From Nocardioidaceae bacterium SCSIO 66511 (GTDB lineage: Bacteria > Actinomycetota > Actinomycetes > Propionibacteriales > Nocardioidaceae), in the NCBI GenBank assembly GCA_023100825.1, contig CP095846.1, forward strand, positions 3,038,001 through 3,102,000: a DNA stretch of 64,000 nucleotides, in the 5' to 3' direction. The notes below the pieces were generated by a model that was given only the letters and a program-made list of their open reading frames with translations, was not told the origin of the DNA and made no database searches. Below, piece by piece: positions 10,828 through 53,130 of this stretch. Position numbers and translations under genes: made by a program. Numbering within the stretch: the stretch's first letter is position 1; each line of letters starts with the position of its first letter.

Positions 10828-12699
10828 CTACGCCACTCCCCCGACGGCGCGCTCCCGCAACGTACGGCGCTGCTGCTCGAGAGCGACCAACTCGCCGAAC
10901 ATCCGGTTGTAGTCACTCACCTCGTCGACCGGGTTCGTGCGCTGCAACCTCGACTTGAGCTCGGCGATGCGACGGAGCGTCGTGAGCTCCTGCACCCGGG
11001 CGACGAGGGCCGACATGAGGGGTTCGGTGACGTCGCCGTTCGTGCGCAACGGCTGCGTCGCCAGTGCCGCGAGCACCGACCGCGTCGCGTCGTCGGACGC
11101 CGCGTCGCGCAGTTCGGGCACCCAAGCGGCATCGGACGCCGCCGACGGTGGGTGCTTCTCGATCAAGGTCCACACGGCCGCAGCCGTGGGATGGGCGAAG
11201 TCGTCCGCGTCGATCCCGTCGAGCCGGCCCGCGGCGACCTGCGGGTACTGCACGATCGCCTGCAGCAGTTCGCGCTCGTCGGCGAACCGCTCCTCGCCGA
11301 GCGACGGAGCATCGGGCGCCGGCGGTCGTACGTCGGCCTGCTCGCGTTGCTGCCGATCGCCACTGCCGCGTTGACCTGCGCGGCGGATCTGCGCACGTAC
11401 GTCATCGACGTCGACCCCGATCGTCGAGGCGATCTCGCGCGCGAACGCGTCGACCTTCGAACGGTCGCGGATCGCCGAGACGAGTCGGGCAGCCTCCGCC
11501 GTCGCGTCGACCCGCTGGTCGGCGCGGTCGAGGTCGTACTTGCGGGCGACGTTGGCGAGTACGAAGCGGTACAACGGCACCCGCTTGGCGATCAGCTCTC
11601 GTACGGCGGCGTCACCCTGCTGCAGCCTGAGATCGCACGGGTCGAGACCCTCGCTCTCGACCGCGACGTAGGTCTGGGCAACGAACTGCTGGTCGCCCTC
11701 GAAGGCGCGCATCGCGGCGTTCTGGCCGGCTTCGTCGCCGTCGAAGGTGAAGATGACCTCGCCACGGAACTCATCGTGATCGAGCATGAGCCGGCGCAGA
11801 ATGCGCGCGTGGTCGGGGCCGAACGCCGTGCCACAGGTTGCAATCGCGGTCGTCACACCGGCCTGATGGCAGGCCATCACATCGGTGTATCCCTCAACGA
11901 CGACGGCTTGCGATGCCTTCGAGATCGGCCGTCGGGCGAGGTCGACGCCGTACAGGACCTGGCTCTTCTTGTAGATCGGTGTCTCGGGTGTGTTGAGGTA
12001 CTTCGCCTCGATCCGGTCGTCGTCGAACAACCGTCGCGCACCGAACCCGACGACATCTCCGGCGACATCGCGGATCGGCCAGATCAGCCGGCCGCGGAAC
12101 CGGTCGTACGCTCCGCGCGACCCGGATGCGACGAGTCCGGACTTGAGCAGCTCGTCGTCGGAGAACCCGGCCGCGCGCAGGTGGGCGAGCAGCGCCTCTC
12201 CGCCGCGCGGGGCGAACCCGACGCCGAAGGTCTCGGCAGCCTCGCGGTCGAACCCGCGGTCGGTCAGGAACTGTCGGCCCGTACGCGCGTCGCTGGCCGA
12301 GGTGAGCTGCTCGACGTAGTACGCGGCGGCGCGACGGTTTGCCTCGACCAACCTCGCGCGCTGGTTCGGGTCGCGACGCGGCCCGCCCCCGCCGTCGACG
12401 TACCGCAGCTGGACGCCGACGCGACCCGCGAGCCGCTCGACCGCCTCGGTGAAGGTGATGCCTTCGACCTCCTGCAGGAATGTGAACGCATCACCCCCGG
12501 CACCGCAGCCGAAGCAGTAGTACATGCCCCGCGAGGGCGTTACGTTGAACGACGGCGACTTCTCGTCGTGGAAAGGACAGAGGCCCTTGCGGCTCCCGCC
12601 GCCGGCGTTGCGCAGCGTGACGTGCTGCTCGATCACCTCGTCGATGCGCACGCGCTCGCGTACGAGTGCGATGTCTTCGTCACGAATCCGGCCGGCCAC
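10828..12699 (-). CDS. dnaG: DNA primase DnaG
   Basis: A 623-residue primase that makes RNA primers at the replication fork. The N-terminal zinc finger is visible (CPFHDEKSPSF then YYCFGCGAGGDAF). The TOPRIM core follows with VVVEGYTDVMACHQAG and FTFDGDEAGQNAA, whose acidic residues bind metal. The last 150 residues form the DnaB-interaction region. The GTG start lies six bases after TACACT, so the mRNA may be leaderless. In relatives dgt is directly upstream of dnaG; here 613 bases of repeat DNA separate them. Confidence 0.97.
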   Translation of the reverse strand: MAGRIRDEDIALVRERVRIDEVIEQHVTLRNAGGGSRKGLCPFHDEKSPSFNVTPSRGMYYCFGCGAGGDAFTFLQEVEGITFTEAVERLAGRVGVQLRYVDGGGGPRRDPNQRARLVEANRRAAAYYVEQLTSASDARTGRQFLTDRGFDREAAETFGVGFAPRGGEALLAHLRAAGFSDDELLKSGLVASGSRGAYDRFRGRLIWPIRDVAGDVVGFGARRLFDDDRIEAKYLNTPETPIYKKSQVLYGVDLARRPISKASQAVVVEGYTDVMACHQAGVTTAIATCGTAFGPDHARILRRLMLDHDEFRGEVIFTFDGDEAGQNAAMRAFEGDQQFVAQTYVAVESEGLDPCDLRLQQGDAAVRELIAKRVPLYRFVLANVARKYDLDRADQRVDATAEAARLVSAIRDRSKVDAFAREIASTIGVDVDDVRAQIRRAGQRGSGDRQQREQADVRPPAPDAPSLGEERFADERELLQAIVQYPQVAAGRLDGIDADDFAHPTAAAVWTLIEKHPPSAASDAAWVPELRDAASDDATRSVLAALATQPLRTNGDVTEPLMSALVARVQELTTLRRIAELKSRLQRTNPVDEVSDYNRMFGELVALEQQRRTLRERAVGGVA

Positions 12700-12711: not shown

Positions 12712-12752
12712 GTGCGCCCGATGAGGCGCGGCGTCTCCGCTTCCGTACCGTA

Positions 12753-13285
12753 CGACTACTCGCCTGCCCGACTCGGCTTCGCTGTCGGCTTTCCGGCTTC
12801 TGCGGTGCGACTACCCGCTTGCCCGACTCCGCTCGCTGTCGGCGTTGCCGCTTCTAACCGCACGACTACCCGCTTGCCCGATTTCGGCCCGCTGTCGGCT
12901 TTCCCGCTACTCGGGCTAGGCAAAAGACGCGGCGACGCGGGAGCCGCAGCTACGATTTCGGGTTCCTTGCCGGCTAACCCGCTCTGGTCGGCTGTTGCGG
13001 GGTCGGTGGGTGGTGGTTCACCAAGTAAACATGGTGAAGTACCGCTTTGCATGGCAGGGACATCGTGCAAAGTGACACGTTGCCGTGCCCGTCGGTACGC
13101 CAGCGACTACCGGTACGGATGTGACCCCGAAAACCGAACATTAGCCCGCTCCAATATTGAAGTGGCACGTACGCCGCCAAGCAACCCGAGCCGAAGAGCC
13201 GCCTCCGCGCGTCGCCGCGTCCTTTGCCTAGCCCAAGTAGCAGCGAGAGCCGACAACGAACGCCGAGCCGGGCAGGCGGGTAGTC
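12753..13285. repeat. Composite palindromic element, copy A
   Basis: This fills the 613-base gap between dgt and dnaG, which has no gene. It has three tandem 55-bp units (12753-12807, 12808-12862, 12863-12917), each starting CGACTAC and containing CTGTCGGC. A left arm (about 12864-12975) is repeated in inverted form at 13172-13285; shared blocks include GGGCTAGGCAAA and GACGCGGCGACGCG. The roughly 195 bases between the arms hold a two-hairpin core. The right arm begins 27 bases after the dgt stop. A second copy lies at 50494-51157. No coding potential is seen; frames through it read repeat translations. Confidence 0.88.
13012..13072. other. Two-hairpin core of element copy A
   Basis: Hairpin 1: TTCACC (13017-13022) pairs with GGTGAA (13033-13038) around AAGTAAACAT, and GGT/ACC pairs again outside an internal mismatch. 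Hairpin 2: CTTTGCA (13045-13051) pairs perfectly with TGCAAAG (13066-13072) around a 14-base loop. The same two hairpins occur in copy B with changes that mostly keep pairing. Confidence 0.7.
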
Positions 13286-13312
13286 ACACGGACCATCCCC
13301 GCTGGGATGCGC

Positions 13313-14575
13313 TCAGAGCAGTCGCCGCGCCCAGTCGCGAGCGGAGTCGTCGGTGAGCGAGGCGACCTGGTCGACCACGACCCGCAGGCGCGCGGAGTCG
13401 TCTGCCGCGAGCTCGAAGTCGGCCGCGAACGACGCCTCCAGCACGTCGGCGCCGCGTGCTCGGCCGACGTCGACGAGGCCGTGGATCAACGCTCGTTGAT
13501 CACGCAGCTGGGTGATCCGGTCATCTGCTCGCATCACGAAGTGCGCCACGATCGCCTTCAGGACGGCGATCTCGGCGCGCGTCGGCGCGGGCACGACGAG
13601 GTCGGCCGCGTAGCGGCTCAGACCGTGGTTGCCGTACGCCTCACGCGTCGCGGCACGCGCCGACAGCGCGAACCTCCCGATCAGCGCACTCGTCAGGCTC
13701 TTCAGCGCCGCGAGGTCGCCTCGCAAGCCGGCGTACGGCGCGGTCGGCCATTCGTCCATCCCGCGCAGCCGGTCGAGCGCGGCATCAAGCTCGTCGGCGG
13801 TCGCGTCGCGTACGTACCAGTCGCGCGCCGTCTCCCACACACCATTGCGGTCGTCGTCGATCTGGTCGAGGCGCATGCGGCCGCCGACCACGGCATCCTC
13901 GAGGTCGTGTACGCAGTACGCGATGTCATCGGACAGATCCATCACCTGCGCCTCGATGCAACGCGCCCGACCTTCGGCACTCTTACGTGCCCAGCGGAAC
14001 GCGTCCAGGTCGTCCTCGTACGCCCCGAACTTGCGGATGAGCTTCGGTGAACCGTCGGCGTGCGACCCCGCTGGTGTCGGCGCATCCGAGCGCAGCCACG
14101 GGTACTTCACGCAGGCATCCATTGACGCGCGGGTGAGGTTGAGCCCGACGCTGGACCCGTCGGATGCGAACGTCTTCGGCTCGAGCCGCGCAATGATCCG
14201 CAGCGTCTGAGCATTGCCTTCGAACCCGCCGCACTCCGCCGCGGCCTGGTTGAGCGCACGCTCACCGTTGTGTCCGAACGGCGGATGCCCGAGGTCATGC
14301 GCGAGCGCCGCCGTCTCGACAAGATCCGGGTCGCAGCCGAGCGCCTTGCCGATCTCACGCGCGATCTGCGCGACCTCCAGCGAATGCGTGAGCCGGTTGC
14401 GGACGAAGTCGTTCGTCGCCGGACCGACGACCTGGGTCTTCGACGCGAGCCGACGAAGCGCGGCAGAATGCAGCACCCGCGCCCGGTCGCGCTCGAAAGG
14501 CGTGCGGTCCGGTCGCTTCGACGGCTCGGGTACGCGGCGCTCGCGCGCCTCGTCGCCGTACATGGGCTCATTCAT
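13313..14575 (-). CDS. dgt: dGTP triphosphohydrolase-like HD protein
   Basis: A 420-residue HD-domain enzyme that splits triphosphate from deoxynucleotides, chiefly dGTP. The N-terminal half shows RNRLTHSLEVAQIAREIG and ALAHDLGHPPFGHNGE, giving the His, HD pair and flanking ligands of the metal site; a later Asp is in DLSDDIAYCVHDLEDA. Length fits the type-2 family of actinobacteria, normally next to dnaG. TACTCT lies seven bases before the ATG, which suggests a leaderless transcript. Palindromic element copy A follows the stop by 27 bases. Confidence 0.93.
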   Translation of the reverse strand: MNEPMYGDEARERRVPEPSKRPDRTPFERDRARVLHSAALRRLASKTQVVGPATNDFVRNRLTHSLEVAQIAREIGKALGCDPDLVETAALAHDLGHPPFGHNGERALNQAAAECGGFEGNAQTLRIIARLEPKTFASDGSSVGLNLTRASMDACVKYPWLRSDAPTPAGSHADGSPKLIRKFGAYEDDLDAFRWARKSAEGRARCIEAQVMDLSDDIAYCVHDLEDAVVGGRMRLDQIDDDRNGVWETARDWYVRDATADELDAALDRLRGMDEWPTAPYAGLRGDLAALKSLTSALIGRFALSARAATREAYGNHGLSRYAADLVVPAPTRAEIAVLKAIVAHFVMRADDRITQLRDQRALIHGLVDVGRARGADVLEASFAADFELAADDSARLRVVVDQVASLTDDSARDWARRLL

Positions 14576-50377: not shown

Positions 50378-50776
50378 TGGGATCGACTCTTGCGAGCCGA
50401 GCGATGACTTTACCGGATGGGCGATCCGGCACCAAAACCGGGCTCGGGTGCGTGGTACCTACCGCAGCACCACCCACCGCTTTGGTTCCGATGCCCTGTC
50501 GGCTTCCCCAACTTCTTCGGTGCGACTACCCGCTTGCCCGACTCCCCTCACTGTCGACTTCCCCAACTTCTTCGGTGCGACCACCCGCGTGCCCGAGTCC
50601 AGCTCGCTGTCGGCTTTCGCTTCCTACTGTGCGACTACTCGCCACTCCGGCCCTCGTCCCTGTCGGCTTCCCCTCGCCTTCTGAGTCGGTAAAGACGCGG
50701 CGACGCGGGAGACGCGGCTACGACCTGGGGTCGCTTGCCGGCTCTCCCACTTCGGTCGGCTTTTGCGGGGTCGGTG

Positions 50777-50839
50777 GTGGTGCTTCACCAAGTAGACATG
50801 GTGAAGCACCACTTTGCATGGCAGCTACACCGTGCAGAG
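50777..50839. other. Two-hairpin core of element copy B
   Basis: Hairpin 1 has a perfect 13-bp stem, GTGGTGCTTCACC (50777-50789) with its complement (50800-50812), around AAGTAGACAT. Hairpin 2 pairs CTTTGCA (50812-50818) with TGCAGAG (50833-50839) including one T-G pair. Both loops match copy A in length, and the first differs at one base. Confidence 0.75.
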
Positions 50840-50893
50840 TGACAGGTTGCCGTGCTCGTTGGTACGTACGTGGCCACCGTGACAGGAGTCCAC

Positions 50894-50989
50894 TCACTGG
50901 CGTCGCGCGCGCGACGTCACTGGTGCGATTTGCCTTGGGACCAAGGCAAACGGTCACTGTCCCAGGGGACACCTCCCGTGGGCAGTGAC
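50894..50989. other. Extra hairpin cluster in element copy B
   Basis: Three palindromes in a row: CGTCGCGCGCGCGACG (50901-50916) flanked by direct repeats TCACTGG (50894-50900, 50917-50923); TTTGCCTTGG-GA-CCAAGGCAAA (50929-50950); and GTCACTG...CAGTGAC (50953-50959 with 50983-50989) extended by CCCA/TGGG. Absent from copy A. Confidence 0.75.
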
Positions 50990-51183
50990 AATCGCCCTTG
51001 GGCGGCACTCAACCTTACCCTGACTCCATGTTAAGGAGATGAGGAAGCCGCCAAGCAACCGAACCGAAATGGCTGCTCCGCGCGTCGCCGCGTCTTTTGC
51101 CCGGCCGAAGGGAGGCGTAAGCCGACAGCGCACTGTAATCGGGCAGGCGGGTGGTCGCACCGAAGAATCGGGAGAGCCGCGAC

Positions 51184-52104
51184 TCACCCCATGGCACCCT
51201 GCCGCCGCGGATCCGAGACAACTCCGCCGGCGGGCGTGATCTCGGTGATGTCGACGTCCGTCGGGAGGTACTTCACGAGGGCGCAGTTGCGCCGCAGCAA
51301 CTCCTCACCGACCCGGTTGCCCGTACGACGGTCGATGACCGACCGCCAGATCTCGTTGCGGCGGAAGTACTCATCGCCGAGCCTGAGGAACTCCTCGTTT
51401 CGGGCGAAGACGCTGTAGGAGTGTTCGGGTGAGGTCGAGGCCCGCAACTCGCCTTCAAGGTAGCGATCGCCGACGCGTACGTTCAGCGTGAACGCGATGT
51501 CGGTGTCGTTGCGGAAACACAGGTCGACGTAGTTGTAGACGATCGAGCAGCCGGTACCCCATGGCAACACGCGCTCGTTGTCGGGGAACGGGTCGAAACT
51601 GTGCTCGGAGCGCTCGGTCACGGTCATCGGCGAGTGCAGCACCATCCAGTGCACGAGGTTCGCGAGCTGGCAGATGCCGCCGCCGACGCCCGACAGCGCC
51701 TCGCCGTTCGACAACCGCATTCCGTCGACGTACCCCTTGCGGCGCGTGCAGTTGCCGACGACGCGATTGAACGAGACCGTCTCGCCCGGACGCACCAACA
51801 GTCCGTCGAGCTTGGTCGATGCGAGCTCCAGATTGCGCACCTTGCCGTGCTGCAGGTGCATCTCATCCTCGCTGAGCGTACGCCGCAGCAGGGAGTTGTG
51901 GCGTTTGATCCGTACCGGCAGGCGCTCGTCGGTGTACGCCTGCGCCCAACTCGCGTCGGAGCGAATCCATCGCCACCGTCTGCGTGCCCGGTGGACGTGC
52001 ACTGCCACTGGGTAGACGGAGGGATGGCGTTCGGTGAAGCGTTGCTCGCGAGCGATCAGCCCCTGCATACGCTCCAGGTCGTCGGTGTGGTCCACGTCAT
52101 TCAT
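51184..52104 (-). CDS. VanW-family protein
   Basis: A 306-residue protein with the VanW core: RPGETVSFNRVVGNCTRRKGY (shown in parts), GMRLSNGEALSGVGGGICQLANLVHW (in parts), then ERSEHSFDPFPDNERVLPWGTG. No signal peptide is evident in the start chosen (MNDVDHTDDLE, 52104). VanW is an accessory gene of vanB clusters with unknown function, but no vanH, vanX or ligase partner is nearby, so a link to glycopeptide resistance is not supported. Confidence 0.85.
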   Translation of the reverse strand: MNDVDHTDDLERMQGLIAREQRFTERHPSVYPVAVHVHRARRRWRWIRSDASWAQAYTDERLPVRIKRHNSLLRRTLSEDEMHLQHGKVRNLELASTKLDGLLVRPGETVSFNRVVGNCTRRKGYVDGMRLSNGEALSGVGGGICQLANLVHWMVLHSPMTVTERSEHSFDPFPDNERVLPWGTGCSIVYNYVDLCFRNDTDIAFTLNVRVGDRYLEGELRASTSPEHSYSVFARNEEFLRLGDEYFRRNEIWRSVIDRRTGNRVGEELLRRNCALVKYLPTDVDITEITPAGGVVSDPRRQGAMG

Positions 52105-52182
52105 CACAACATAAGGGACGCACGATGCAACTAATTTGGTTGCTTCGGAATGTTGCGTGGCCCTGACGCGTTCGCCCCGGAC

Positions 52183-53130
52183 ATGAGCACTCGTATCGTG
52201 GCAACCGCCTTCGGTGGACCTGAGGTCCTGGAAACCGTCGAGTACGAGATGCCCGCACCCGGGCCCGGCGAGGTGGCACTGAAGGTGCGAGCCGCGGGAG
52301 TGAACCCGATCGACCACAAGCTGTACTCCGGGCAGTTCGGTACCGACTCCGACGATCTCCCCATGCCCCTGGGATTCGAGGTCGCCGGTGTCGTGACCGC
52401 CGTCGGCGACGGCGCATCGGGTCCACGTGGGCCGGTCTCCGTCGGTGACGAGGTCATCGCGTACGGCGTCAACGGCGGGTACGCGGACGAGCTGGTCGTG
52501 TCTGCCAACGCGGTCGTACCGAAACCCACCTCGCTCGACTGGGCGCCCGCGGCCGGGCTGATGCTGGCCGGTGTCACGGCCTTCCACGCCGTCACCGTTG
52601 TCGCGCCCGAGGACGGCGACACCGTGCTCATCCACTCCGGTGCCGGCGGAGTCGGCATCGTCGCCGTACAGCTCGCAGTCGCGCGTGGCGCACGCGTCAT
52701 CGCGACCGCGAGCGCGCGCAACCACGACTTCCTGCGCGAACTCGGCGCGGAGCCGGTCGCGTACGGCGACGGGCTCGTCGAGCGCGTACGCGAACTCGCA
52801 CCGAACGGCGTCGACGCGGCCATCGACCTCTACGGCGACGACTCGGCCGTCGACACCTCGCTCGCGCTGGTCTCCGACCGTACGCGGATCGTGACGGTCG
52901 CCGGATTCGAGCGCGCCCAAGCCGACGGCTTCACTGCCATCGGCAGCGGGCCCGGCGCCGATCCGGGCACCGAGCTCCGCGCCGCAGCGCGACTGGAGCT
53001 CGTCGACCTCGTCGACCGCGGCGACCTCGAGGTGGTCGTCGACAGCACGTACCCCCTACGGGAGGTCGCGGCTGCGCACACCCGCTCCATCGACGGTCAC
53101 GTACGCGGCAAGATCGTGCTGGTGCCCTGA
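52183..53130 (+). CDS. NADPH-dependent quinone reductase-like MDR protein
   Basis: A 315-residue medium-chain dehydrogenase/reductase of the zinc-free quinone oxidoreductase group. The N-terminal GroES-like half has GPGEVALKVRAAGVNPIDHK; the Rossmann half has HSGAGGVGIVAVQLA. Zinc ligands are lacking. No clear ribosome-binding site precedes the ATG at 52183. Divergent from the vanW-type gene with 78 bases between. Confidence 0.9.
   Translation: MSTRIVATAFGGPEVLETVEYEMPAPGPGEVALKVRAAGVNPIDHKLYSGQFGTDSDDLPMPLGFEVAGVVTAVGDGASGPRGPVSVGDEVIAYGVNGGYADELVVSANAVVPKPTSLDWAPAAGLMLAGVTAFHAVTVVAPEDGDTVLIHSGAGGVGIVAVQLAVARGARVIATASARNHDFLRELGAEPVAYGDGLVERVRELAPNGVDAAIDLYGDDSAVDTSLALVSDRTRIVTVAGFERAQADGFTAIGSGPGADPGTELRAAARLELVDLVDRGDLEVVVDSTYPLREVAAAHTRSIDGHVRGKIVLVP

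Follow-up and report, generated by a model that had tools for sequence, protein, structure and literature searches.

REPs and RAYTs ('REPtron', TnpA-REP) form the described system that the elements reported here resemble most in their layout. RAYT genes are chromosomal, occur as a distinctive single copy and have their own class of palindromic repeats alongside (PMC3116915). The repeats themselves are scattered through extragenic DNA, for the most part in inverted doublets and clusters, and several gene/repeat pairs can be found per genome (PMC3116915). MITEs provide another point of comparison; BrickBuilt of Porphyromonas gingivalis is, like our elements, intergenic and repeated, its 19 copies having inverted ends and, inside, tandem units of 23 nt, although the abstract of that study describes no hairpins common with a nuclease gene (PMC4596501). 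Here we present a family of elements which are, in our judgment, probably the dispersed, gene-less members of the hairpin-repeat family of a resident gene for a predicted AbiEi/Vsr-like nuclease, in an arrangement similar to that of RAYT/REPIN.

The analysed window is a 64,000-nt stretch of the genome of Nocardioidaceae bacterium SCSIO 66511 and carries two composite palindromic elements, whose ends are approximate throughout. Their features are as follows.

12729..13293, plus strand: composite palindromic element, copy 1 (all-against-all similarity with 79 other genomic copies; own-genome search)
12747..12911, plus strand: left arm of copy 1, three 55-bp direct units (repeat search)
12906..12939, plus strand: left inner inverted arm of copy 1 (partner 13208-13241, 34 nt, 94% complementary)
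13208..13291, minus strand: right inverted arm of copy 1 (inner 13208-13241, outer 13262-13291; repeat search)
12985..13116, plus strand: conserved core of copy 1, modelled as R1 (alignment A1 of 29 copies)
13012..13043, plus strand: hairpin 1 of copy 1, GGTGGTTCACCA..TGGTGAAGTACC (sequence, consensus fold, alignment)
13045..13072, plus strand: hairpin 2 of copy 1, CTTTGCATGG..TCGTGCAAAG (sequence, consensus fold)
13080..13088, plus strand: half-site TTGCCGTGC in copy 1, found also in the nuclease flank, where it follows hairpin 2 (alignment)
50469..51179, plus strand: composite palindromic element, copy 2 (own-genome search, repeat search, all-against-all similarity)
50515..50673, plus strand: left arm of copy 2, unit spacing 55 and 54 bp (repeat search)
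51111..51167, minus strand: right inverted arm of copy 2 (pairs with 50568-50624, 57 nt, 88%; repeat search)
50753..50883, plus strand: conserved core of copy 2 (R1 match, 140.4 bits)
50777..50812, plus strand: hairpin 1 of copy 2 (arms 94% complementary; repeat search)
50925..51008, plus strand: insert of copy 2, with homology to the repeat that flanks nuclease paralogue 2 (alignment)
50929-50950: hairpin TTTGCCTTGGGACCAAGGCAAA within the copy 2 insert

Copy 1 is located between dnaG (10828-12699, minus strand) and dgt (13313-14575, minus strand), and copy 2 between tRNA genes (minus strand) and a vanW-type gene (51184-52920, minus strand). In copy 1, the outer inverted arms pair 12748-12777 with 13262-13291, and hairpin 1 corresponds in the alignment to TTTACCATG..CATGGTAAA at the nuclease gene. 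Repeat search and all-against-all similarity confirmed both elements of the original prediction, with their tandem units of about 55 bp, inverted arms and hairpin-rich core. RNA folding of the two copies was far above that of shuffles (z -10.9 and -9.5). An Rfam search gave no family match for the elements, the only window matches above the gathering score being three tRNAs, and no description was found in the literature searched; the earlier view that they belong to no named family is upheld.

Searches with each window copy and with R1, a covariance model of the 132-nt core built from alignment A1 (29 copies, dispersed ones only), revealed about 81 clear copies (R1 at least 80 bits) in the 4,609,448-bp genome, besides several weaker matches. 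The family had been taken to comprise two copies; the genome-wide and relative searches proposed with it thus returned many more, about 81 here and about 45 in the congeneric genome G001. In their high copy number and extragenic palindromic character the repeats are like REPs, but their units are larger, about 100 bp in relatives and with composites of up to about 800 bp in this genome, where the median element length is about 485 bp. All 80 copies with context checked were intergenic with respect to genes called by a simple and crude codon-usage caller. Among the 160 neighbouring gene ends, 107 were 3′ ends, 94 of which faced a copy at no more than 50 bp, while the 53 gene 5′ ends were farther off (median 87 bp). 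The distance from copy to stop codon had a median of 17 bp (quartiles 7 and 35; 80 copies), and the 26-27 bases noted for the window elements reflect a coincidence of two copies and the choice of boundaries. Nor was orientation constant, as had been supposed: 34 copies were found between convergent and 7 between divergent genes, whereas in tandem gaps 23 were oriented with the genes and 16 against them (n = 80). These counts indicate that the preference for 3′ ends is real but that constant distance and orientation are not general. The idea of a specific element at 3′ ends therefore stands with respect to the many copies and the strong 3′-end preference, and not with respect to fixed spacing or direction; it is further backed by the absence of the element from one orthologous gap of G001. 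In 55 of 80 cores the fold was more stable on one strand, on which stem variation consisted mostly of G-U wobbles (alignment A1). This bias gives a hint that one of the two strands is what is recognised in the core.

Weaker R1 matches in this genome include an inverted pair 1.2 kb apart which encloses one gene, and the same was observed in G001. The gene (G000:C1:3288548-3289528) codes for a 327-aa protein, and its G001 counterpart, 74% identical, occupies a syntenic chromosomal site. R1 matched both flanks in inverted orientation (57.8 and 45.8 bits). Alignment of the core with the left flank gave a score of 54, against a shuffle maximum of 26, and spanned both hairpins and the following half-site. 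Paralogue 2 (G000:C1:2529871-2530830, 39% identity) is flanked by a different hairpin, and it is to this repeat that the copy 2 insert is related: the insert aligned with the upstream flank of paralogue 2 (locus L189) with a score of 66 (shuffle maximum 28) and shares 19 identical bases with the downstream flank. As in a REPtron, the cognate gene is flanked by its own repeat class and paralogue 2 has its own repeat. This link of the core to nuclease-gene flanks, absent from the original prediction, is not visible from the window alone. This genome encodes four diverged homologues of the protein; unlike its repeats, the gene has not multiplied. Between L189 (G000:C1:2528300-2532300) and L192 (G001:C1:4389800-4393900) the flanking genes are opposite in orientation relative to the nuclease gene, which suggests that the nuclease cassette either flipped between its repeats or was inserted anew at that site.

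The N-terminus of the protein matched AbiEi_4 (PF13338) above cut-off and also the AbiEi models of PADLOC. Pfam recognised this N-terminal part only, NCBIfam gave nothing above cut-off, and a sequence search against solved structures returned no match. The structure model of a 50%-identical homologue (mean pLDDT 94) matched the AbiEi antitoxin structure PDB 6y8q with an E value of 2e-5. In the C-terminal domain, the homologue alignment revealed invariant E, D and E-x-D-G-x-x-K residues, and with this domain alone Vsr was the best match among nucleases, if a weak one (probability 0.98, E 0.08, TM ~0.54). Given the weak fold match and the invariant residues, a nuclease is predicted rather than proven, and the protein is modelled as an AbiEi-type winged helix fused to a Vsr-like PD-(D/E)XK nuclease. 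With Vsr and DUF559-type PD-(D/E)XK endonucleases it has in common the predicted C-terminal fold and the ExDG motif, the structural similarity being weak. Vsr repairs T:G mismatches and is not known to be linked to repeats. A single-gene nuclease paired with dispersed genomic repeats is found in the neisserial repeat-binding GIY-YIG endonuclease, which is of a different nuclease superfamily and phylum from the AbiEi-nuclease. The likeness to AbiE type IV toxin-antitoxin systems lies in the N-terminal fold and sequence models. Unlike AbiE, the protein has an invariant nuclease-like C-terminal domain, and in the loci read (L072 and L073) its gene is the sole one between the hairpin repeats, with no adjacent gene for the AbiEii nucleotidyltransferase toxin. 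A third AbiEi_4 (PF13338) gene of this genome (L209, G000:C1:2994874-2995002) seems to belong to an ordinary AbiE-type pair and is likely the true AbiE locus; no hairpin repeats were seen there on inspection by eye.

Across many actinobacterial genera, the AbiEi-nuclease gene is paired with hairpin repeats of its own. Homologues were present in 34 of the 39 relatives searched, one or more in each. Of the 24 homologues that could be tested in the first set of these, 22 had flanking inverted repeats that scored above shuffles. For the scan of named actinobacteria, an alignment of the closer protein set was used, the first alignment being too diverse. Here, the inverted repeats around 59 of 77 homologues outscored the 99th percentile of 197 shifted controls, and the remaining 18 had no flanking repeat above threshold. 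The median flanking-repeat score was 68 for the 77 homologues vs. 26 for the shifted controls; for 38 ordinary window genes the median was 24 and the highest score 38 (homologues vs. these genes, p ~2e-11). A score of 374 in one cross-locus control is most likely due to the near-identity of loci L119 and L120. The sequence of the flanking repeats differs by lineage, yet they are usually strong hairpins (median z -4.5; 44 of 56 below -2), situated about 100-250 bp upstream of the gene and, as an inverted copy, downstream as well.

Dispersal was counted in four genomes, namely this one, G001, G013 and G019. Cognate hairpins occur at about 25-30 dispersed places in G019, about 23 in G013 and about 45 in G001 (by R1). 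In these three relatives the copies read as a hairpin, half-sites, and then a hairpin or half-hairpin, and lie mostly just after stop codons. The median 3′ distance was 12 bp in G013, 33 bp in G019 and -1 in G001, the last because the match range extends past the hairpins. Inverted doublets like those of REPtrons were found in G019 and make up part of the copies in G013 and G001, while this genome has composite units. The orthologous vanW-tRNA gap of G001 was without the element, and its dgt-dnaG gap (L259:1295-1490) had an unrelated 26-bp inverted repeat (GGCCGTGTCTGTCTATGCC) in place of copy 1. The sequence between the arms of that repeat recurs at another G001 locus, L292. In the most similar pair of copies the cores were 98% identical, and near-identity extended over about 370 bp before it faded within the arms. 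As the most similar pairs diverge gradually within the arms, element ends could not be fixed and no target duplication was definable. With no target-site duplication or excision product found, mobility of the elements is likely, short of proof.

We infer that the protein recognises its hairpin, acts on it catalytically and thereby mobilises the repeats by copying. The nuclease gene keeps to one chromosomal site, and its hairpins are now found at about 80 places. The protein would recognise the cognate hairpin, probably when this is extruded or single-stranded, and nick or cut there; repair or replication from the break could then copy the repeat elsewhere. Copies would persist mainly after stop codons, being harmless at such positions.

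Inverted repeats around a gene together with dispersed gene-less copies are, at the same time, the layout of MITEs, and the core recurs in the flanks of the nuclease gene, a unit that may be autonomous. The repeats could thus be non-autonomous MITEs of an ordinary transposon moved by an unseen transposase, with the AbiEi-nuclease gene as passenger or defence cargo. We consider this unlikely: no other gene lies within the repeats at the loci read, pairings of this kind turn up in many genera although their repeat sequences are unrelated, and the gene is present as four diverged homologues and not as multiplied copies. That the hairpins are operators, through which the AbiEi winged helix regulates its own gene in the manner of AbiEi antitoxins and of which the dispersed copies form a regulon, would agree with the N-terminal fold and with the repeats upstream of the gene. 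We find it very unlikely in view of the inverted copy downstream and of the avoidance of promoters, with 107 of 160 gene ends being 3′ and the 5′ sides at a median of 87 bp; operators for promoters would not be found by the tens at 3′ ends.

The 3′-end placement in four genomes, the strong folding and the stabler fold on one strand in 55 of 80 cores could also be read as signs of transcribed 3′ structures, terminators or mRNA stabilisers, which spread by helping gene expression. Orientation does not follow transcription, with 23 copies along it, 16 against it and 34 between convergent genes, the orthologous vanW-tRNA gap in G001 does without the element, and the link with the nuclease gene would be left unexplained, which makes such an origin quite unlikely; as a secondary use, a transcribed 3′ structure may apply. 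A transcribed 3′ structure of fixed orientation was ruled out by the mixed orientations of the 80 copies. Extragenic inverted hairpin doublets resemble REPINs (PMC3116915), and ordinary REPINs would be moved by a RAYT, an IS200/IS605-like Y1 transposase. Y1_Tnp (PF01797) had no match in this genome, while the same search matched in five control genomes, and the protein found here, with its AbiEi winged helix and predicted PD-(D/E)XK domain, is no HUH/Y1 enzyme; it is hardly conceivable that a RAYT moves these repeats. Since the layout is that of RAYT/REPIN but the protein is unrelated and no Y1 enzyme was found, we propose that the hairpin family of the AbiEi-nuclease works like REP/RAYT and do not claim it as one.

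Literature searches yielded no paper describing an AbiEi-nuclease gene paired with hairpin repeats, and the AbiEi/PD-(D/E)XK proteins have so far been annotated as orphan antitoxins. If the homologues partner hairpin families, these proteins, common in actinobacteria, would gain a testable function, much of the intergenic repeat DNA of these genomes would be explained, and the REP/RAYT lifestyle would have a second enzyme, unrelated to the first. Why gene/repeat pairs persist, an open question, could then be compared between unrelated enzymes. A broader proposal, to which we give even chances, is that they form a large unrecognised actinobacterial class in which each nuclease maintains a private hairpin family and drives the copying that spreads it, as a counterpart to RAYT/REPIN but independent of it. 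Distant paralogues at L191 (G000:C1:955000-958200) and, in G001, at L193 and L194 are DUF559-like with an ExDGxxH-type motif and have their own inverted hairpin repeats.

The 55-bp arm units gave no match to any nuclease flank among the loci tested, and all 53 arm matches listed for this genome were within 900 bp of a core. The paralogue 2 hairpin lies beside the core in 19 copies. In this species, nesting and tandem duplication have probably built the units up into composite palindromes, which include hairpins of the second nuclease. At two G019 loci (L302 and L313) cognate hairpins form head-to-tail arrays with a spacing of about 61 bp, an arrangement that recalls the 55-bp arms of the window elements.
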